NCBI RefSeq assembly: GCF_013376455.1
Contig: NZ_CP045504.1
Coordinates: 1,839,501 to 1,903,500, forward strand
DNA: 64,000 bases
Reading direction: 5' to 3'
Source of the DNA: Desulfolutivibrio sulfodismutans DSM 3696
Lineage (GTDB): Bacteria > Desulfobacterota > Desulfovibrionia > Desulfovibrionales > Desulfovibrionaceae
The notes under the pieces were generated by a model. That model saw nothing but the letters and a program-made list of their open reading frames with translations, had not been told where the DNA came from and did not search any database. Both the position numbers and the translations under genes were made by a program. Positions 978-10,421 of this stretch are shown one piece after another (the stretch's first letter is position 1; the number at the start of each line of letters is the position of its first letter).

Positions 978-1565
978 ATGGCCCTGCCCATCAAGCCCAA
1001 ACTGGAAAAGACCCTGCCACGAGACGAACTGGCCGATTTTTTGCGCCAGTTGGCCGCCCAGGCCCAGTCGGGCGCCTTGGATTTTCCCGGCGGCTCCGTG
1101 CCCCTGGCGGGCATGAAGACGCTCAAAATCGCGGTCAAGGACTCGGGAGAGGCCCTGACCGTCAAGGTGCGCCTGAAATATCCCAAACCCGAACCGGCCC
1201 ACGCCCTGCCCGGCGGAAGCGGGGAGACGCCCGTCCCCGGCGGGAAAAGCGGCCCGGCGGCCGCCGGAGCCTCCCTGCGTCCCCGGTACAAGTCGCTGAA
1301 AAAACGCATGAAGCGCGATTTCAAGGACATCGGGGCCGCCCTGGCCGCCGGGAGCGCCCCCCGGCCGGACACCCTGGCCGCCTTCGTGGCCGATTCCCGG
1401 CTCATGACCACCTACCGGGGCAAGGGCGACGACCAGTATCCGGCCTATCTGGAGGCGGTGGCCGCCTTGGAGGCCGCCCAGGCGGCCGACGACCTGGAGG
1501 CCATGTCCCGGGGCTACCGGGAACTGGCCCTGTGCAAAAAGAAATGCCATGCCGGACACGCCTGA
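978..1565 (+). CDS. GAK-system XXXCH-domain protein
   Basis: A 195-residue protein. The ATG at 978 is chosen because GGGAGG lies about 10 bases upstream and because residues encoded before it are arginine-rich and non-family-like. The N-terminal ~70 residues resemble an amphi-Trp/XXXCH-type module (LPRDELADFLRQLA, then a beta-rich stretch ending in a basic segment). After a Pro/Gly-rich linker, a helical part ends in the signature CKKKCH near the C-terminus. Proteins with this ending are the XXXCH family, found in the 'GAK' gene cassette with HprK-related kinases and amphi-Trp proteins. Its biochemical role is not known to me. It is the first gene of a same-strand group running to 5940. Confidence 0.75.
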   Translation: MALPIKPKLEKTLPRDELADFLRQLAAQAQSGALDFPGGSVPLAGMKTLKIAVKDSGEALTVKVRLKYPKPEPAHALPGGSGETPVPGGKSGPAAAGASLRPRYKSLKKRMKRDFKDIGAALAAGSAPRPDTLAAFVADSRLMTTYRGKGDDQYPAYLEAVAALEAAQAADDLEAMSRGYRELALCKKKCHAGHA

Positions 1566-1590
1566 TATGGGCGAACACAAGGCGGTACCC

Positions 1591-2757
1591 ATGGAAGCGG
1601 TAAAAAAAATCGGCGCGGCGGCCCGATGCGCGGACATTGATCTGCGGGAGGTGCCCGGCGAGGCCACCGAGGAAGAGCGGGCGGCGTTTTTCCAGGTGAT
1701 CTCCACGCAGCTTTCCCCGGAGCAGATCATCCGGATCACCCAGCCGCAGCAGACCTATCCCCGCCAGGACTATGTCCTGGCCGTCCATTGGCATCCCGAA
1801 CAGGTGCCCATGGAGCTTGTGGACCAGCGCCTGGACGCCCTCTACCCCCACAGCCAGGGGGAACTGGTCATCCCCACCCAGCACAACGTGCTCTTGCACC
1901 GGGGCGACTATTCCGGGGTGGAGGTGGACTGCTATTCCCGGGGGTTCAACCGCAAGGTGCAGCTCCTTTTGCATTTCAAGGACATCAAGATGGAGCGGGC
2001 CGAGGTGCTTTTATGCATGCTCAAGCACACCTTCAAGTACCGCTCCTCCCAGCTTTTCGAATATTTGAACACCCTGGTGGAACCGGCCTTCGAGGATCGC
2101 CTGCAACTGGCCGCGGCCCAGACCAACACCGACGAGGACATCGTGGGCTTCGTGCGCGTCCAGGCCCAGAAGCTCAAGGATCTGCTTCTGGAAAACGAGG
2201 AGCAGGTTCCCGACGACGCCATTAAAAACAAGCTGGTGCGCAACTTCTTCGACGCCCTGCGGCAACGCTACCACGACCGGGTCATCGACAAGGCCCAGGT
2301 TTTCCTCAAGGCGGCCAAGGAAATCGTCAAGCGCCACTTTTCCCTGGACTATTTCTACCGGGCCTCGGAGGTCATCGAGGAGGCCCGCAGCCTTGGCGCG
2401 GGCGTGGTCATCCCCCACCCGGAACAGTTCTGGCCCATCCTTCTGGCCGACTACGACGTGGACGGCATCGAGGTCTGGAATCCCCAGTCCCAGCAGTACA
2501 CGGAGTTTCTCATCAACGTGGTCAACCGCCGCAACCGCATGGGCTGGCACGGCAAGCGGCCCATCCTGATTTTCATGGGCGACGACTGCCACTTAAGCGA
2601 AAAGCTGAAAGCGCCTTCGGAGCAGGATCCGGCCAAGGCCATCCGCGAGGTGGGGCTGCAACCCGCCTGGGACGACTACGCCATCCGCAAAAGCCTGATC
2701 ATCAACGGCGTCAACCGCAAAAAGGTCATTGAGGAATATCGCTCCCGGCTGTCCTGA
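1591..2757 (+). CDS. PHP-domain-like predicted metal-dependent phosphoesterase
   Basis: About 388 residues from the ATG at 1591, preceded by AAGGCGG. An in-frame ATG at 1549 would overlap the previous gene by 17 bases and has only a weak ribosome site. Features typical of the PHP superfamily are visible: HWH (residues 66-68), a conserved-looking PHPEQFWP block around residue 276 followed by GIEVWNP, and GDDCH (331-334). In PHP proteins such His/Asp residues bind two or three metals for phosphoester hydrolysis. A long helical insertion (roughly residues 130-260, Glu/Lys/Leu-rich) separates the first motif from the others. It lies inside the GAK-like cassette. Substrate unknown; PHP membership is inferred from motifs only. 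Confidence 0.55.
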   Translation: MEAVKKIGAAARCADIDLREVPGEATEEERAAFFQVISTQLSPEQIIRITQPQQTYPRQDYVLAVHWHPEQVPMELVDQRLDALYPHSQGELVIPTQHNVLLHRGDYSGVEVDCYSRGFNRKVQLLLHFKDIKMERAEVLLCMLKHTFKYRSSQLFEYLNTLVEPAFEDRLQLAAAQTNTDEDIVGFVRVQAQKLKDLLLENEEQVPDDAIKNKLVRNFFDALRQRYHDRVIDKAQVFLKAAKEIVKRHFSLDYFYRASEVIEEARSLGAGVVIPHPEQFWPILLADYDVDGIEVWNPQSQQYTEFLINVVNRRNRMGWHGKRPILIFMGDDCHLSEKLKAPSEQDPAKAIREVGLQPAWDDYAIRKSLIINGVNRKKVIEEYRSRLS

Positions 2758-2800
2758 CGGCCCACGGCGCGATGCCCACATGCCCGAGAAAGGTATCCCC

Positions 2801-3082
2801 ATGTCCCAGAAAGGCAAATTCTCCTACGAATCCCTCCAGGATTCGCAGATCCTGCTCACCTACCTGAAGGCTTTGGTGCAGGGCTTCGAATCCGGGACCA
2901 TGCGGTTTTCGGTCAAAGACGACGAGATCGAGCTGCATCCCACGGGGCTGATCCACTTCGGGGTGGAGGCCAAGGCCAAGCGGGACCGCATGAAGCTGAT
3001 CCTCAAGTTCGCCTGGCGCGAGGGCGAGGACGACCCCCGGGCCGGACACGACGTGCTTCGCGTCGAGGCGGAGAAACCGTGA
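2801..3082 (+). CDS. Amphi-Trp domain protein
   Basis: A 93-residue protein beginning MSQKGKFSYES. The ATG at 2801 is preferred over the one at 2780 because AGAAAGG sits about 6 bases before it. The sequence has the small amphi-Trp layout: a short helix (residues 10-27), then alternating beta strands (GTMRFSVKDDEIELHP), and a strand ending in LKFAWRE, where Trp lies among alternating polar and hydrophobic residues. Amphi-Trp proteins are small partners in GAK cassettes and in some archaeal loci; their function is unknown. The gene lies between the PHP-like gene and the PhoU-kinase fusion, all on one strand with short gaps, so co-transcription is likely. Confidence 0.7.
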   Translation: MSQKGKFSYESLQDSQILLTYLKALVQGFESGTMRFSVKDDEIELHPTGLIHFGVEAKAKRDRMKLILKFAWREGEDDPRAGHDVLRVEAEKP

Positions 3083-3140
3083 TCCCGGCCCGTCGTTTTT
3101 GCCCACCCGCACCTGTGTCGCCAGCCACGCGAGAACCACA

Positions 3141-4778
3141 ATGAAGTTTCTGGAAGGCATCGAAGAAAATCTGCGGTTCATGGTCCTTGAGGTCTCCCGC
3201 CAGGTGGAGAGCACCCTCAACTGCCTGGAAGACCCGGACCCCGCCCTCATCGCCAAGATCGAGAGCCGCGACGACTACATCGACAACTTAAAAAGCGTCA
3301 TCGAAAACCTGTGTTATTCCAAGATCCACGGCCCAAGCGGGGCCTACAAGCCCGCCGTGGACCTGGCCCGGGCCATCAACATCGTCAGCGCCAACCTGGA
3401 ACGGGTGGCCGACCACGCCGTGAACATCGTCATGCAGGTCCAATACCTGTCCGACGCGGCCTTCATCAAACGCTACGACTATCTGGCCGGATTCCACGAG
3501 GTGGACAAGGCCCTGGGCATCATCGTCAAGGCCCTTCTGTCCCAGGACGTGACCCTGGCGTTTAAGATCTGCCGGGCGGAATTCAACCTGGACGCCATCT
3601 TCAAGGACAATTTCGACCGCATCCTGGTGGACCTGCGCAAGGGCGAATCCCCGGAGAACTGCATCACCTGCCACAACATCTTCCGCTACCTGGAGCGCAT
3701 GGGGGATTCCATCCTAAACATCGGCGAGGCCATCATCTTCGCCGCCGTGGGAGAGAAATTCAAGATCCACCAGTATCAGGCCTTAAAAGACACCCTGGCC
3801 CAGCGCGGGGCCGAGGTGCCCATCACCAAGGGCGAATTCCAGTCCATCTGGGGCACCCACTCGGGCTGTCGCATCGGCAAGCTGCCCGACAAGCCCGGCT
3901 CCAAATCCCACGGGGTGCTCTTCAAGGAAGGCAACGCCACCAAGATCATCCAGGAAAAGGAGAACATCGAGCGCTGGGAGGCCATCCTGCCCGGCCTGCC
4001 GCCCCGGGTGCAGGGGTTTCAAAGCGAGGGCGACTCGGCCTCCATGCTCCTGGAATACCTGGGCGGCTGCACCCTGCAACAGATCGTGCTTACGGCCGAT
4101 GCCGAGATCGCGGCCAACGCCATGTTTTTGGTGGAACAGACCATGTCCCTGTTGTGGGACAAGACCAAAAAAGACGGACAGGTCTCGGCCGGGTACATCC
4201 GCCAGCTCCACGCCCGCCTGGAGGACGTCTTCCGGCTGCATCCCGATTTCGACACCCCGCCGCGCACCATGGGCGACCTGGAATTGTGGTCCTTCGCGGA
4301 AATGCTCGAGGCCACGGCAGAGCTCGAACGGCAGTTGCCCGCCCCCTTCTCCGTGTTCATCCACGGCGACTGCAACATCAACAACATCATCTACGAGCAC
4401 ACCGAGCAGCGCATCCACTACATCGATCTGCACCGCTCCAAGGACACGGACTACATCCAGGACGTCTCCGTGTTTCTGGTTTCCAACTTCCGCCTGCCCA
4501 TCATGGACCAGAGCATGCGCGCCCGGCCCAACCAGGTCATCGCCCGGTTCCTGGACTTCTCCCGGGACTACGCCCTGGCCCATGGCGACGATACCTTCGA
4601 GGCCCGGCTGACCCTGGGACTTATCCGCTCGTTTCTGACCTCCACCCGGTTCGAGTTCAACCGGGATTTCGCCAAGGACATGTTCCTGCGCTGCACCTAT
4701 CTCATGGGCCGCATCCTGACCCATGCCGGAAGCCCCTGGCAGGATTTCCGGTTGCCCGAACGGGTGCTGTACTACTAA
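3141..4778 (+). CDS. PhoU-like domain fused to APH-type phosphotransferase
   Basis: A 545-residue protein starting at MKFLEG. The first ~215 residues form a helical bundle like PhoU (NIVSANLERVADHAVNIVMQ and LERMGDSILNIGEA are the E-R-x-x-D-H/D metal-binding repeats of that fold). From about residue 250 the protein changes to an aminoglycoside-phosphotransferase/choline-kinase-like fold. The catalytic loop IHGDCNINNI and, 18 residues later, HYIDLHR match the H-G-D-x(2-3)-N and D-x-x motifs of these kinases. The fusion suggests phosphoryl transfer to a small molecule or protein, controlled by the PhoU half. It lies third from the end of the GAK-like cassette. Substrate unknown. Confidence 0.7.
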   Translation: MKFLEGIEENLRFMVLEVSRQVESTLNCLEDPDPALIAKIESRDDYIDNLKSVIENLCYSKIHGPSGAYKPAVDLARAINIVSANLERVADHAVNIVMQVQYLSDAAFIKRYDYLAGFHEVDKALGIIVKALLSQDVTLAFKICRAEFNLDAIFKDNFDRILVDLRKGESPENCITCHNIFRYLERMGDSILNIGEAIIFAAVGEKFKIHQYQALKDTLAQRGAEVPITKGEFQSIWGTHSGCRIGKLPDKPGSKSHGVLFKEGNATKIIQEKENIERWEAILPGLPPRVQGFQSEGDSASMLLEYLGGCTLQQIVLTADAEIAANAMFLVEQTMSLLWDKTKKDGQVSAGYIRQLHARLEDVFRLHPDFDTPPRTMGDLELWSFAEMLEATAELERQLPAPFSVFIHGDCNINNIIYEHTEQRIHYIDLHRSKDTDYIQDVSVFLVSNFRLPIMDQSMRARPNQVIARFLDFSRDYALAHGDDTFEARLTLGLIRSFLTSTRFEFNRDFAKDMFLRCTYLMGRILTHAGSPWQDFRLPERVLYY

Positions 4779-4821
4779 CCCCTTGCCCGGAGGCCCCGGC
4801 CGCCTCCATCCGGAGCAACGG

Positions 4822-5940
4822 ATGCGCGACCTCCCCCCGGCCAGGGCGGACGCCCCCCCGCCGGGCCAAAGCCTGGCCCAGGCTGTCGCCGTCCTGTGCC
4901 AGGCGTTCGCCCCGGCCGCCAGCCTGTCCCTGGTCCTGGCCCAGACCCGGGTGGCCGTGGTCTGCGACAGCCCGGACACGGCCCGGGCCGTGGGCGCGGC
5001 CTTTCGGGATTTCGCCGCCCCCCCCGGGCCCGCCGACATCACCATCCTGTTGCACTGCCGCCCCCCGGTTCCCGAAGACTTCTGCCCCGGCGTGGTCCTG
5101 GCCGACCGCCCCTTCGATCCCCGCGACGCCACCTCCAAGGAGCAATGGGCGGACCTGCCCGGCGGCCGGGTGGTCCGCAAAAAGCGCACGGGCATGGTCT
5201 TTGTCTTCGGCGACAACGTGCATGTGGCCGCCGGGCCCTGCCTGGACCACCTGGACCAGATCGTGAACTTCATCAATTTCCGGATGGTCGCCCGGCATTT
5301 AGCCCAGGGCTGCCTGCTGTCCCATGCCTCGGGCGTGGCCCGGGGGGAACGGGGGATTCTCCTGGCCGGGGTGGCCGGGGCCGGGAAATCCACCCTGGCC
5401 CTGCGCCTTGTGGGCCGGGGACTGGACTTCGTGTCCAACGACCGCCTGCTCGTGGGGCCACGGGAGCCCGGCCCCCGCATGTACGGCCTGGCCAAGATGC
5501 CGCGCATCAATCCCGGCACGGCCCTGGCCGATCCCAATCTGGTCCGGGTGGTTCCCGAGGCCGACCGCGCCGCCTTCGCGGCTCTTCCGACGGATCGGCT
5601 GTGGGAGGTGGAGCGAAAATACGATGCCGTCATCGACGATCTCTTCGGCCCCGGCCGGTTCCGGCTGGCCACGGACCTTTTTGCCGTGGCCGTGCTCACC
5701 TGGCGGCGCGGCGGCGGCAAAACGCGCGTCTGTCCGGTGGACCTGTCCGCCCGGCCCGATCTGCTTGGCCGCATCATCAAGCGTCCGGGCATCTTCCTGC
5801 GCTGCGCCCGGAACAGCGTCCACGATCCCGAGACATTCGCCCGCCGCCTGCACGGCCTGCCGACCTTCGAATTCTCAGGCGGCATCGATTTCCCGGCCGC
5901 CGAAGACGCCCTACTCGCCCTTCTGGATCGCCCGGAATAA
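4822..5940 (+). CDS. HprK-related kinase (GAK system, type B-like)
   Basis: A 372-residue protein. The ATG at 4822 has GGAG six bases upstream. The middle of the protein carries the P-loop GVAGAGKST (Lys189) preceded by LLSHASGVARGERG, which is the arrangement of HPr kinase/phosphorylase-type kinases. FVSNDRLLVG follows shortly after, with an acidic residue in the expected Walker B position. The N-terminal ~150 residues are family-specific. HprK-related kinases of this kind occur in GAK cassettes with XXXCH and amphi-Trp proteins. The cassette's usual ATP-grasp and CofD-like members are not seen in this window. The gene is followed by a 137-base gap and then an unrelated signalling block. Confidence 0.72.
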   Translation: MRDLPPARADAPPPGQSLAQAVAVLCQAFAPAASLSLVLAQTRVAVVCDSPDTARAVGAAFRDFAAPPGPADITILLHCRPPVPEDFCPGVVLADRPFDPRDATSKEQWADLPGGRVVRKKRTGMVFVFGDNVHVAAGPCLDHLDQIVNFINFRMVARHLAQGCLLSHASGVARGERGILLAGVAGAGKSTLALRLVGRGLDFVSNDRLLVGPREPGPRMYGLAKMPRINPGTALADPNLVRVVPEADRAAFAALPTDRLWEVERKYDAVIDDLFGPGRFRLATDLFAVAVLTWRRGGGKTRVCPVDLSARPDLLGRIIKRPGIFLRCARNSVHDPETFARRLHGLPTFEFSGGIDFPAAEDALLALLDRPE

Positions 5941-6077: not shown

Positions 6078-8096
6078 ATGTACACGACTCCCCTGGTCCT
6101 GCCCCGACCGGCCGAAGGCGCACGGCAGAAACGCGTCCTGATCGTAGAGGACGACCCCGTTTCCGCCCAGGTTCTGGCCAAGCGCCTGGACCTCCTCGGA
6201 TTTCTCTGCACCGGGATCGCCCAGGATGCGGACACCGCCCTGGACATGGCCAAAACCGCCCTCCCCGATCTCGTGCTCCTGGACATCCGCATCCCCGGAA
6301 GCATGGACGGCATCGGCCTGTGCGACGTCATCCAGCGCCGCCACCACATTCCGGTGATCCTGGTCACCGCCTACACCCAGGAGGAGATCACCACCCAGGC
6401 CGCCGCCGTGAATCCCTACGGCCTGTTGTTCAAGCCCGTGGATTTCTCCCAACTCCGGGTGGCCATGGAAACGGCCCTGCGCAAGCGGGCCGAAGAGGAT
6501 CTGCAGGAGAGCTCCGAACGCTTCCGGGCCACCTTCGAACAGGCCGCCGTGGGCATGTGCCATGTGCTGACCGACGGCCGGTTCCTGCGGGTCAACGAGC
6601 AACTGTGTCGGCTTCTGGGCTTTTCCCGCCCGGAGTTGGCCGGGAGCGCCCTGCGCGCCGTCACCCATGAAGACGATCTGGAAATGGCTGACGCGGCCAT
6701 CGGCAGCATCCTCTCCGGCCACATCGAGACCCACACCTTCGAGATGCGCCTGGCCCGCAAGGACGGCTCCCTGGTCTGGACCCTGGTCACCCTCTCGCCC
6801 GCCCGGGGGGCCTCCGGGGACATCGACTATCTCATCGCCGTCATCCAGGACGTGACCCAGAGCCACCGCGCGGCGGAGGAACTGCGGGACAACGAGGAGA
6901 CCCTGCGCAACATCCTCAACGGCATACGCGCCGCCATCTTCATCATCGATCCTGAATCCAAGGTGATCCTGGACGCCAACGCCATCGCCGAGGATCTCCT
7001 GGGTCTGTCCAGGGAGGAGTTTCTGGGCAAATCCTGCTGCACGCTCGACTGGCAGGACAAGCGGGGCCGCGAGATATCCGGGTTGTGCCGGTTCCGGGAC
7101 AACTCCCTGGTCAACGAGGAAATGCGCCTGAAAAAGGCCGACGGCCGGGTCGTGCCCATCATCAAGACCGTGATCCCGGGCATGCGCCGGGGCCGGACGG
7201 TGCTGTACGAGATCGTATTCGACATCTCCGAGCGCAAGGCCCTGGAACGGCGGCTGTCCATCGCCCAGAAGCTCGAATCCGTGGGCGAGCTGGCCGCCGG
7301 GGTGGCCCATGAGATCAACACCCCCATCCAGTACATCGGCGACAACCTGCACTATCTGCAATCCGCCTACGCCGATCTGCACCGCATCCTGGACGCGGCC
7401 CTGTCCGCCCTGGCCCTGCCTTCGGTGCGCGACGCCGCCGGGGAGGCCCTGCGGGAGGTGGACGCCGCCCGCACCGCCGCCGATCTGGACTTTTTGGCCG
7501 AAGAGGTGCCCAAGTCCCTGGAACAATCCCTGGAGGGCGTGGAACGGGTGGCCTCCATCGTCCGAGCCATGAAAAAATTCTCCCATCCTGGCGGTGAGGA
7601 AAAAACCGCCGTGGACATCAACAAGGCCGTGGAAAACACCATCCTGGTGGCCAGGAACGAATGGAAATACGTGGCCGACGTGGTCACCGACCTGGATGCC
7701 GACCTGCCGCCCGTGCATTGCCTGCCCGGCGATTTCAACCAGGTGATCTTAAACGTGCTCATCAACGCCGCCCACGCCATCGGCGACGCCGTGCGCGGCA
7801 CATCGGAAAAAGGCCGTATCACCATCGTCACCCGTCGTGAGGGACGCCTGGCTCGGCTTTCCATCACGGACACCGGCACGGGCATCCCGGAAAAGAACCG
7901 GGAAAAAATCTTCGACCCCTTTTTCACCACCAAGGAAATTGGCCGGGGCACCGGCCAGGGACTGGCCATCGTCCACGACATCGTCGTGGAAAAACACGAC
8001 GGAACCATCGATGTGGAGTCGGAGGTGGGCAAAGGCGCCACGTTCCACATCCGCATTCCCATTGGCGGCGACCATGGATGCGAGGCCCCGAAATGA
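6078..8096 (+). CDS. Hybrid sensor histidine kinase: REC-PAS-PAS-HisKA-HATPase
   Basis: A 672-residue cytoplasmic kinase with no membrane segment. Residues 16-135 are a receiver domain (EDD at 24-26, phosphoacceptor Asp69, Lys119). Two PAS domains follow (about 140-275 and 275-395). The dimerisation helix carries AHEINTPIQYIGDN with His411 as the phosphorylated residue, and a ~60-residue helical insertion lies between it and the ATPase. The N box is NVLINAAHAI, the G1 box DTGTGIP, and the G2 box GRGTGQGLAI. Its stop overlaps the start of the next gene by four bases (ATGA), so it is translationally coupled to a REC-HDOD protein. The N-terminal receiver suggests it acts within a phosphorelay. 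Confidence 0.9.
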   Translation: MYTTPLVLPRPAEGARQKRVLIVEDDPVSAQVLAKRLDLLGFLCTGIAQDADTALDMAKTALPDLVLLDIRIPGSMDGIGLCDVIQRRHHIPVILVTAYTQEEITTQAAAVNPYGLLFKPVDFSQLRVAMETALRKRAEEDLQESSERFRATFEQAAVGMCHVLTDGRFLRVNEQLCRLLGFSRPELAGSALRAVTHEDDLEMADAAIGSILSGHIETHTFEMRLARKDGSLVWTLVTLSPARGASGDIDYLIAVIQDVTQSHRAAEELRDNEETLRNILNGIRAAIFIIDPESKVILDANAIAEDLLGLSREEFLGKSCCTLDWQDKRGREISGLCRFRDNSLVNEEMRLKKADGRVVPIIKTVIPGMRRGRTVLYEIVFDISERKALERRLSIAQKLESVGELAAGVAHEINTPIQYIGDNLHYLQSAYADLHRILDAALSALALPSVRDAAGEALREVDAARTAADLDFLAEEVPKSLEQSLEGVERVASIVRAMKKFSHPGGEEKTAVDINKAVENTILVARNEWKYVADVVTDLDADLPPVHCLPGDFNQVILNVLINAAHAIGDAVRGTSEKGRITIVTRREGRLARLSITDTGTGIPEKNREKIFDPFFTTKEIGRGTGQGLAIVHDIVVEKHDGTIDVESEVGKGATFHIRIPIGGDHGCEAPK

Positions 8097-9331
8097 AAAA
8101 GAAACGCATCCTGTTCGTTGACGACGAGCAGCATGTGCTCGACGCCCTGCGCCGCATGCTGCACGGCATGCGCGACCAATGGGAGATGAGCTTCGCCACC
8201 TCCGGGAAGCGGGCCCTGGACATCCTGCAGACCTCCCCCCAGGACGTGATCGTGGCCGACATGCGCATGCCGGGCATGGATGGCGTCACGCTGCTCGACG
8301 AGGTCCGCTCAAGCCATCCCGCCGTCATCCGCCTGGTTCTGTCCGGCCATTCCGATACGAACACGGCGCTCAAATCCGTACGCCATGCCCACCAATTCCT
8401 GCTCAAGCCCTGCCAACCCGGGGAACTTCGGGCCGCCATAGAACGGGCCACCACCCTTCAGGACATCTTTTCCAACGAGGCGGTCAAGACCGTGGTGGCC
8501 AGGATCGAGACCCTGCCCAGCCTGCCCCGGACCTATCTGGAACTCATGCAGGAACTGCGTCGGGAAGAGCCGTCCCTGCGTATCGTGGGGGATCTGATCA
8601 ACCAGGACATGGGCATGTCCGCCAACATCCTAAAACTCGTCAATTCGGCCTTTTTCGGCCTGCGCACCCATGTCTCGAGCCCGGTCCACGCCGTGAACCT
8701 GCTGGGCACCGAGATCATCAAGGCCCTGATCATTTCCCTGCATCTGTTCTCCCGTTTCAATCTGGACCGCTTCCCGGGGTTCTCCCTGGAGCTTTTATGG
8801 AAGCACAGCCTGACCACCGGACTCTTCGCCAAGACCATCGCCCAGGTCGAGGAGCGCAGGCCCCAGGAGATCGACGACTGTTACATCTCCGGGCTTTTGC
8901 ACGACGTGGGCAAGCTCCTTTTAGCCGCCAACTTCGAGCAGGACTACCAGCAGGTGCTCGCCCGCAGCCGGACGGAACAGCGCACGGTGCATGACATGGA
9001 AAAGGAAGTCTTCTCGGCCTCCCACGCCGAGATCGGGGCCTACCTGCTGGGCCTGTGGGGACTTCCCGAAAACGTGGTCACGGCCATCTTCTCGCACCAT
9101 ACGCCCCCGGCCGCCCCCCTATCGGGCTTCTCCACCCTTCTGGCCGTGCATGCGGCCAACAGCCTGGAACACGAGCTGGTGGTGCTCAACGCCGACTACG
9201 CCCCCCACCCCATGGACACCACCTTCCTGGAGGACTCCGGCATGGGGCGCAGGATCGAGGACTGGCGGCAGGCCTGCTCCCGACGACTTACGGAGGAATT
9301 CCATCTTGAACGAGAAAATTCTCTTCGTTGA
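8093..9331 (+). CDS. Response regulator with HDOD output domain
   Basis: A 412-residue protein. The ATG at 8093 overlaps the preceding stop and has GAGG seven bases upstream. The receiver domain spans residues 3-120 (Asp10, Asp11, phosphoacceptor Asp56, Lys near 105 in LLKPCQP). Residues from about 140 form an HDOD domain: LPSLPRTYLELMQEL, LVNSAFFG, and GLLHDVGKLLLA, which retains an HD pair. HDOD proteins are non-enzymatic or weakly characterised signalling outputs tied to cyclic-di-GMP and stress circuits. It probably receives phosphate from the upstream kinase. The next gene begins inside its last 26 bases. Confidence 0.88.
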   Translation: MKKKRILFVDDEQHVLDALRRMLHGMRDQWEMSFATSGKRALDILQTSPQDVIVADMRMPGMDGVTLLDEVRSSHPAVIRLVLSGHSDTNTALKSVRHAHQFLLKPCQPGELRAAIERATTLQDIFSNEAVKTVVARIETLPSLPRTYLELMQELRREEPSLRIVGDLINQDMGMSANILKLVNSAFFGLRTHVSSPVHAVNLLGTEIIKALIISLHLFSRFNLDRFPGFSLELLWKHSLTTGLFAKTIAQVEERRPQEIDDCYISGLLHDVGKLLLAANFEQDYQQVLARSRTEQRTVHDMEKEVFSASHAEIGAYLLGLWGLPENVVTAIFSHHTPPAAPLSGFSTLLAVHAANSLEHELVVLNADYAPHPMDTTFLEDSGMGRRIEDWRQACSRRLTEEFHLERENSLR

Positions 9332-10421
9332 CGATGAAGCCAACATCCTGGACACCTTCCGCCGGGGACTGCACAGGCGGTTCACCCTGGAAACGGCCCC
9401 GGGCGGCAAGGAGGGGCTCGACTGCCTGCAAAGCTCAGGCCCCTTCGCCGTGGTGGTTTCCGATCTCAAGATGCCCAAGATGGATGGCATCCAGTTTCTG
9501 CGCCACGTGCGCGAGATGTCCCCCAACACCGTGCGGGTCATGCTGACCGGACATGCCGACCTGGAGGCGGCCATTGCGGCCGTGAACGAAGGGCACGTCT
9601 TCCGGTTTTTGACCAAGCCCTGCGACGGGGGAACCCTGATAAAGACCCTGGAGGCGGCCCTGGAGCAGTACCGGCTGATCACCGCCGAAAAGGAGCTGTT
9701 GCACGGCACCCTGCGCGGCAGCATCAAGGTGCTGGTGGAGATCCTCTCCCTGGTCAACCCCGAGGCCTTCGGCCGCAGCGAACGCATCAAGCGCATGGTC
9801 GTGGCCACGGCCAAGGAGCTTCGGCTCAAGAACATCTGGCGTCTGGAACTGGCGGCCATGCTCTCCCAGATCGGCTGCGTGTCCATCCCCGAGGAGATCC
9901 TCTCCAAGAAGTATTCCGGCCAGCCCCTTGGCCCCGAGGAGGAACAGATCTACGGCATGCACGCCTCCATCGCGGTGAAGCTTCTGGACAACATCCCGCG
10001 CATGGACGAGATAAACGACATCATCGCCCACCAGGCGGACAACTATGTCGTCGGTCTCGAACAGCCCATAGGGGCCCGCATCCTCAAACTGGCCCTGGAT
10101 TTTGACGACCTGGAACAACAGGGGATGACCAGGGAAAAGGCCATCTCCGTGATGCGGGATCATCCCGAGTCCTACGATCCCGGGATTCAGACCGCCTTCG
10201 AGCGGGCCGTGTTTGTCGAAGAAGGCTTCGTGCCCAGACGCCTCCCCGTGCGCGAGCTGCTCCCGGGCATGATCCTTGGCGCAGACGTCAAGACCGTCTC
10301 CGGCATCCTGCTTTTGGCCAAGGGGCAGGAGCTCACGGACCTGGTTTTGGAACGCCTGATCCGGCTTTCCGGAACCTATGAGGTGCGTGAGCCTGTCCTG
10401 GCCCTGGCGCCCATTCAATGA
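9306..10421 (+). CDS. Response regulator with degenerate HD-GYP-like domain
   Basis: A 371-residue protein with a TTG start at 9306. GGAGGA lies eight bases before it, and the receiver motif KILFVDDE begins immediately after, so the start is well supported despite being rare. The receiver domain occupies residues 3-120 (VVVSDLKMPKMDG, MLTGHAD, LTKPCD). The C-terminal region follows the HD-GYP pattern in outline (SIPEEILSKK, PLGPEEEQIYGMH, PIGARILKLALDFDDL). However, the HD pair is replaced by SQ (residues 187-188, AMLSQIGC) and no GYP is present. It is therefore unlikely to hydrolyse cyclic-di-GMP and may bind it or act by protein contact. It overlaps the HDOD gene by 26 bases. Confidence 0.82.
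   Translation: MNEKILFVDDEANILDTFRRGLHRRFTLETAPGGKEGLDCLQSSGPFAVVVSDLKMPKMDGIQFLRHVREMSPNTVRVMLTGHADLEAAIAAVNEGHVFRFLTKPCDGGTLIKTLEAALEQYRLITAEKELLHGTLRGSIKVLVEILSLVNPEAFGRSERIKRMVVATAKELRLKNIWRLELAAMLSQIGCVSIPEEILSKKYSGQPLGPEEEQIYGMHASIAVKLLDNIPRMDEINDIIAHQADNYVVGLEQPIGARILKLALDFDDLEQQGMTREKAISVMRDHPESYDPGIQTAFERAVFVEEGFVPRRLPVRELLPGMILGADVKTVSGILLLAKGQELTDLVLERLIRLSGTYEVREPVLALAPIQ

Follow-up and report, generated by a model that had tools for sequence, protein, structure and literature searches.

A split GAK-type cassette with a PHP-fold protein and a PhoU-kinase fusion in Desulfolutivibrio sulfodismutans, and a possible phosphate-linked phosphoryl circuit

The DNA analyzed here, called the window, is a stretch of 64,000 nucleotides from Desulfolutivibrio sulfodismutans DSM 3696 (contig NZ_CP045504.1, positions 1,839,501 to 1,903,500), and the system in question is a cassette of five genes near its beginning which belongs to the GAK system of the NCBIfam models TIGR04354-TIGR04358. 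The five genes form a tight unit on the + strand. They encode an XXXCH protein (window positions 978..1565, 195 amino acids), a PHP-fold phosphoesterase-like protein (1549..2757, 402 amino acids), a stand-alone amphi-Trp protein (2801..3082), a PhoU-kinase fusion (3141..4778, 545 amino acids) and a divergent second copy of the HprK-related kinase B (4723 or 4822 to 5940). The 3' end of the XXXCH gene overlaps the beginning of the PHP gene, and that of the PhoU-kinase gene falls within the longest HprK frame. Sigma-70-like promoters were not detected, and terminator-like sites are rarer than in shuffled sequence.

An earlier note on this DNA had recognized a GAK-type cassette of five co-directional genes with an XXXCH protein, an amphi-Trp protein and an HprK-related kinase. 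All three families score above their NCBIfam cut-offs: the XXXCH protein reaches 89 bits with TIGR04358 (cut-off 40), the amphi-Trp protein 60.7 bits with TIGR04354 (cut-off 31) and the kinase 360 bits with TIGR04355 (cut-off 200). Together with the models grasp_GAK and CofD_rel_GAK, five GAK families exceed their cut-offs in this genome, and the assignment to the system holds. The fusion of PhoU helices to an APH-type kinase is likewise borne out, with PhoU (PF01895, 83 bits, gathering score 23.5) and APH (PF01636, 29.2 bits, gathering score 23.2) in a single protein. The motifs quoted at that time are all present, i.e. HWH (residues 80-82), PHPE (289-292) and GDDCH (344-348) in the PHP protein, the P-loop GVAGAGKST of the HprK-related kinase B (5368-5394, residues 216-224) and CKKKCH in the XXXCH protein; the latter does not end there, as had been stated, since AGHA follows at the C-terminus.

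The PHP-like protein and the PhoU-kinase had been regarded as unusual members. Our survey of relatives points the other way. Loci around PHP homologues were collected in three sets (40 loci, then the best 80 of 237 relatives, then 18 from the phylum), and counting each contig once gave 94 distinct PHP loci with a length of 16 kb or more; loci and genomes are cited below by our L and G numbers. The usual gene order is XXXCH, PHP, amphi-Trp, PhoU-kinase, ATP-grasp, HprK, CofD, with a frequent extra amphi-Trp gene and, in some loci, XXXCH in last position. The order of the window cassette thus recurs in relatives, as the earlier note had proposed to check, and is no chance arrangement, and both supposedly unusual proteins recur with GAK genes and belong to the cassette. 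The 94 loci include 91 with the PhoU-kinase, 90 with amphi-Trp, 79 with grasp, 73 with HprK, 69 with XXXCH and 67 with CofD; all seven families share one locus in 49. By this comparison, the PHP-fold protein, the small amphi-Trp protein and the PhoU-kinase are the most constant members, and ATP-grasp, HprK_B, the CofD-like protein and XXXCH accompany this core in most genomes, often in one gene run. The PHP relatives (best 80 of 237) include Desulfobacterota of several families, Phycisphaerae, Zixibacteria, Nitrospinota and Eisenbacteria, and as many of them are metagenome bins, individual taxonomic labels could be erroneous. Of 395 genomes sampled across the phylum, 27 have the PHP protein, so that the system is patchy.

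Co-inheritance was followed in 199 genomes of the class. PHP, PhoU-kinase (both halves) and grasp over cut-off have identical distributions (98 genomes), and HprK_B over cut-off occurs in 92 genomes, all of them within these 98. XXXCH is present in 118 genomes, among them 97 of the 98 with PHP (G170 lacks it). CofD over cut-off is found in 172 of the 199, and three of the 98 (G001, G053, G185) gave no CofD match row. XXXCH without PHP occurs in 21 genomes; it adjoins CofD in 13, does not in 7, and could not be placed in one (scored by eye). By these distributions, PHP, PhoU-kinase and grasp are the constant core, and XXXCH and CofD are a separable pair able to live without it. In a divergent family the PHP protein occurs in six genomes, five of which are covered by loci (G451 was left out). 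Within the stretch, L179-L181 hold only PHP, amphi-Trp and PhoU-kinase, the rest of those genomes not having been searched for grasp, HprK and CofD; L182 has the same three genes on a contig that ends ~0.5 kb past the kinase, and L183 has PHP alone.

The ATP-grasp and CofD-like genes, which the earlier note had reported as missing, are indeed absent from the window, but they are not lost from the system. The search elsewhere in the genome located the GAK ATP-grasp at C1:1251779-1252651 (417 bits with the NCBIfam model), a second HprK_rel_B, the main copy, at C1:1250706-1251746 (528 bits with TIGR04355) and the CofD-like protein (CofD_rel_GAK) at C1:1245290-1246384 (539 bits). The order at this second locus (1.245-1.253 Mb) is grasp, HprK, peroxiredoxin-like, pta-like, ackA, CofD, where the peroxiredoxin-like and pta-like genes were named by sequence reading and ackA by tblastn. 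The cassette begins at ~1840478, ~0.59 Mb away. Among the 199 genomes the split arrangement is common to both genus mates (G007, G010). The window HprK scores 360 bits with TIGR04355 versus 528 for the main copy, and together with the two genus-mate copies it forms a long branch away from the main copy in the tree, in which deeper support is moderate. Given that all seven families stand together in 49 of 94 relative loci, the window displays a split variant and not a reduced GAK system; its cassette is a rearranged copy of a conserved gene set. It differs from the GAK system of NCBIfam in being split over two loci in this genus instead of forming one contiguous cassette, and we found no text that makes contiguity a defining trait. 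It further differs in that the constant members PHP and PhoU-kinase are named by no NCBIfam model over cut-off. The full-text literature yielded no paper on the GAK system or the function of its families, most subscription journals lying outside the coverage. In L005, L158 and L159, all of the same genus, peroxiredoxin-like, pta-like and ackA genes lie between HprK and CofD, and ackA is also found near the three-gene loci L179-L181. Since ackA neighbours are narrowly distributed (6 of 158 loci, confined to this genus and three loci of one distant family), they were given no weight.

The PhoU-kinase consists of a PhoU part (~3150-3758, +) and an APH-type kinase part with HGD...N and D motifs (~3999-4493, +). 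Signatures of both parts, PhoU and kinase, are conserved, and the APH active-site residues HGD, NN and D (H408, G409, D410, N415 and D429) are kept in at least 95% of 40 aligned rows. A distinctive linker, WGxRSGCRI, carries His for the first Arg in the window copy. The five solved relatives found are all PhoU proteins and match the N-terminal half. Like PhoU of the Pst system, which reads the phosphate-uptake state together with Pst, the cassette kinase has a PhoU domain over cut-off; unlike it, this domain is fused to an APH-type kinase, and in some loci separate stand-alone PhoU genes lie beside the fusion. A second PhoU-kinase copy with grasp was seen away from the PHP cassette in L161, L163 and L167; in the first two, HprK belongs to that run as well.

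Genes for phosphate transport adjoin the system in some lineages. Pst and Pho proteins of L129 and L144 were used as tblastn queries against 122 loci (119 distinct), and PstB or at least two Pst genes flank 13 of the 119 (L040, L041, L045, L050, L056, L080, L081, L097, L099, L115, L129, L131, L144). In L129, pstS, C, A, B and phoU lead straight into the cassette; one extra frame lies between pst-phoU and the cassette in L115, and two in L099. Six of the loci retrieved have an HprK that is separate from PHP and forms no run with grasp (L160, L162, L167, L169, L170, L171), and four of these six contain pst genes: the arrangement is pstB-phoU-HprK-CofD in L160 and L162, and HprK adjoins pst genes in L167 and L170. 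Beside amphi, PhoU-kinase, grasp and HprK in L161 lies a PiT-type transporter (PF01384, 292 bits). At the genome level, 6 of 28 genomes have a PstB gene over the TIGR00972 cut-off no more than 10 kb from a GAK gene versus 0.26 expected, a test which relatedness among these genomes inflates. Inorganic phosphate regulates HPr kinase, which would fit the pst context.

The PHP-fold protein was assigned by structure. It has no NCBIfam match and a Pfam match at chance level only, and PF02811, the profile suggested for its verification, matches none of 40 family members up to E 10 (within the HMMER filters), although the fold is that of PHP; in this lack of a match the cassette protein differs from the RNase AM, Cv1693 and BAD_1165 phosphoesterases. 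A profile of the family run against PDB sequences returned nothing useful, and hhalign gave no significant match between the PHP alignment and E. coli RNase AM. The AlphaFold2 model has a mean predicted local distance difference test score of 89.4, and its best solved structures in Foldseek are RNase AM (9etk, 4.7e-6) and BAD_1165 (3o0f, 1.1e-5). VIA gave Z 15.4 against 3o0f (root-mean-square deviation 3.6, 240 aligned residues), 15.1 against 9etk and 14.3 against 2yb1, a Chromobacterium protein with Mn, AMP and phosphate bound according to its title. By this model, the PHP member has an RNase AM-like PHP fold. Ten residues (H80, H82, E84, H112, E125, H142, H290, D345, D346 and H348) are invariant in 40 of 40 sequences. 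These His, Glu and Asp residues follow the order expected of PHP metal sites, and all of them but D345 are candidate metal ligands by our mapping from motif order. The protein shares its fold with RNase AM, Cv1693 and BAD_1165 over ~240 residues at Z 14-15 and, by our reading, the order of metal-type motifs; it is longer than these proteins, with an N-terminal extension and a helical stretch (residues ~150-265) between the motifs. A second protein that reads as PHP-type (DLHVHSKFS motif) was noticed in the flanks of 10 of the 122 loci, e.g. L144:17780-19051.

These folds raise an alternative in which the PHP protein acts as a phosphoesterase on nucleotides or RNA ends. The cassette would then break down nucleotides during phosphate shortage, to scavenge phosphate or keep it in balance, with the other members in regulatory roles. 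The nearest folds, BAD_1165, RNase AM and the Chromobacterium protein crystallized with AMP and phosphate, fit this, as do the pst genes nearby in some lineages. It leaves two kinases, a ligase and a CofD-like protein unexplained, however, and the solved relatives have 280-290 residues versus 402 here, with the long helical stretch between the motifs in addition. We consider this explanation improbable.

As the comparison of loci shows, the window carries one half of a split GAK system. The reading that we tentatively prefer, without granting it even chances, is a phosphate-linked phosphoryl circuit in which a PhoU-domain kinase is opposed by a PHP phosphoesterase. In favour of it are the shared distribution of PHP, PhoU-kinase and grasp, the three-gene loci L179-L181, the conservation of the kinase, P-loop, ATP-grasp and CofD motifs, and the phosphate transport genes near the system in some lineages. 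The composition of the cassette is well supported; mechanism and substrate we infer. The circuit would be located in the cytoplasm. The PhoU half would read the state of phosphate uptake and control the attached APH-type kinase, this kinase would phosphorylate a partner, and the PHP enzyme would remove or hydrolyze the kinase product. HprK_B and the CofD-like protein, which are one open frame in one genome (L107) and lie beside pst genes in some, may form a second couple that would feed in the carbon or nucleotide-sugar state. The RimK-like ATP-grasp would add an amino acid to the partner, and amphi-Trp and XXXCH are possible protein partners. The earlier note had already seen a hint of a phosphoryl-transfer circuit, and a unit of kinase, phosphoesterase-like protein and PhoU, with phosphate transport genes adjoining the system in some lineages, does fit one. 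The wider proposal, a previously undescribed form of phosphate signalling in anaerobes with PhoU wired to a kinase, PHP opposing it, and a cytoplasmic cytochrome c'-like protein and a YvcK-like protein as inputs or targets, seems to us rather unlikely as a whole. With a PhoU-kinase and a PHP-fold protein as its most constant members, and phosphate transporters beside parts of it in several lineages, an orphan cassette gains a phosphate hypothesis that can be tested in sulfate reducers and elsewhere among bacteria. The fusion of PhoU to a kinase would also be informative on the way in which PhoU transmits its signal, to our knowledge an open question.

Several observations weigh against the phosphate-linked circuit. 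Most loci and genomes, the window included, have no pst gene nearby, and where HprK stands apart from PHP in a run with grasp (L005, L158, L159, L161, L163, L164, L166), pst genes are found in none of the seven loci retrieved. The six PstB-linked genomes come from three genera (g6, g12, g43), four of them from one genus, and represent three independent cases. Homology to PhoU is no proof of phosphate sensing, and sequence profiles fail to recover PHP. HprK_B over cut-off is absent from six of the 98 genomes (G089, G118, G127, G135, G172, G192; three of these assemblies have at least 150 contigs), and L063, L083, L183 and L184 have PHP with no PhoU-kinase in the stretch. Finally, the only residues of the amphi-Trp protein that reach 95% conservation in 38 aligned rows are P52 and W77; the lack of any Ser, Thr or His among them makes it a weak candidate substrate, and its candidacy as an HPr-like phosphoacceptor of HprK is unsupported. 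Phosphate-limitation fitness data for D. alaskensis G20 (PMC5193443), in the portions accessible, contain no cassette member identifiable by locus tag, and neither support nor refute the circuit. Among the matches listed for HPr kinase together with PhoU in Desulfovibrio and for PhoU-aminoglycoside phosphotransferase in sulfate reducers, titles and abstract openings mention nothing on the system.

The remaining enzyme-type members lend themselves to a different explanation, i.e. a biosynthetic pathway for an as yet undescribed small molecule, phosphorylated and ligated to an amino acid, in which two kinases activate, ATP-grasp and the CofD-like protein build, and PHP trims. Several members are of enzyme type, have conserved active-site motifs and are inherited together: HprK_B keeps the P-loop and an SND motif in the family alignment (the window copy reaches 24.1 bits with TIGR00679, HPr kinase/phosphorylase, cut-off 240), and the motifs of ATP-grasp and CofD are conserved as well. 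The nearest relatives of ATP-grasp are alpha-L-glutamate ligases, lysine-biosynthesis enzymes and RimK-type proteins, and the CofD Pfam domain scores 132 bits in the CofD-like protein. Against any fixed pathway stand L179-L181, where ligase, HprK and CofD are missing from the stretch, the rest of those genomes not having been searched. An F420-like cofactor pathway was rejected as the main reading because CofE (PF01996) is absent from 10 of 10 genomes, with three archaeal controls positive, and because the CofD family model, which matches in E. coli and Lactococcus, is silent in all three archaeal controls with CofE; moreover, a sequence search of the PDB with the CofD-like protein gave five matches, of which two carry UPF0052 in their titles, two are hypothetical proteins and one is uncharacterized. 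We rate a biosynthetic pathway as somewhat unlikely.

These PDB entries are YvcK proteins, also known as GlmR, and YvcJ is a P-loop protein. GlmR is described as binding its partner YvcJ (PMC7525490), and uridyltransferase activity is reported for Listeria GlmR (PMC10128056). The CofD-like protein resembles UPF0052/YvcK in sequence, matching two UPF0052-titled entries; unlike YvcK, its partner here is HprK-like and not YvcJ. A link of CofD to the lactate operon via DVU3031 was rejected, as DVU3031 is an AAA-DRTGG protein (PMC10102598, PMC4481167); PMC10920352 has it as a conserved hypothetical protein.

The XXXCH protein combines an N-terminal amphi-Trp-like domain (~999-1178, +; residues 8-67, 24.2 bits with TIGR04354, under cut-off) with a C-terminal XXXCH domain (~1287-1553, +), modelled as a four-helix bundle and supported by fold matches, in which a Cys-His pair (1545-1550, +) is nearly invariant. 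This pair is kept in 82 of 83 XXXCH proteins, with the remaining one keeping His (the last CH was counted as the motif, and some protein starts are uncertain). In that protein, from L128, Cys is lost and His kept (ISHNKYK), a hint that His matters more. Cytochrome c' is the top Foldseek match of the model (1.4e-3, probability 1.0), and a profile of 35 sequences finds it in the PDB at E 0.0014 with Cys-His aligned to the heme-motif pair. Of the 35 members, 20 match Cytochrom_C_2 weakly (limit E 10, best 1.2e-4) and 12 match Cytochrom_B562. Model and profile suggest that XXXCH is possibly a cytoplasmic relative of cytochrome c', with heme binding hypothetical. It is like cytochrome c' and b562 in its predicted four-helix shape and the CH near the C-terminus, and unlike them in lacking CxxCH (0 of 82 proteins) and a visible export signal (0 of 83, by the crude test of a hydrophobic run of 12 within the first 45 residues) and in its fusion to an amphi-Trp-like domain.

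XXXCH could accordingly be pictured as a cytoplasmic heme or metal sensor of cytochrome c'/b562 shape, with the cassette transmitting redox or gas signals to its kinases. While the fold match, the profile match with CH in register and the conservation of CH would suit such a sensor, the missing CxxCH and export signal do not, and XXXCH is missing from L179-L181 and G170. The VIA score against cytochrome c' (Z 11.6) is under 13, a range that is not decisive for helical bundles, and the cytochrome c' rows from the PDB are mostly variants of one protein, with designed helical proteins next at E 0.005. We hold this sensor to be very improbable.

Further XXXCH proteins were seen outside the cassettes. 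The genome of the window has a second, stand-alone XXXCH domain protein of ~105 amino acids at G000:C1:2890154-2890417 (L006), near parA, parB and a sugar kinase (genes named from sequence), and second, short XXXCH copies occur in further genomes. In L173 (G048), where XXXCH lies next to CofD and an amphi-Trp gene, a frame change seems to split it from its amphi-Trp-like N-terminus.

Further recurring clusters in the flanks of the 122 loci, which may reflect no more than common descent and whose types were partly read from sequence, comprise histidine-kinase-like proteins (25), ABC ATPases including PstB (22), a permease-type frame (14) and the low-molecular-weight phosphatase type (13). In the window itself, the region 3' of the cassette (6078-10421) encodes a hybrid PAS sensor histidine kinase, identified with Pfam, and two response-regulator-type genes, read from sequence.

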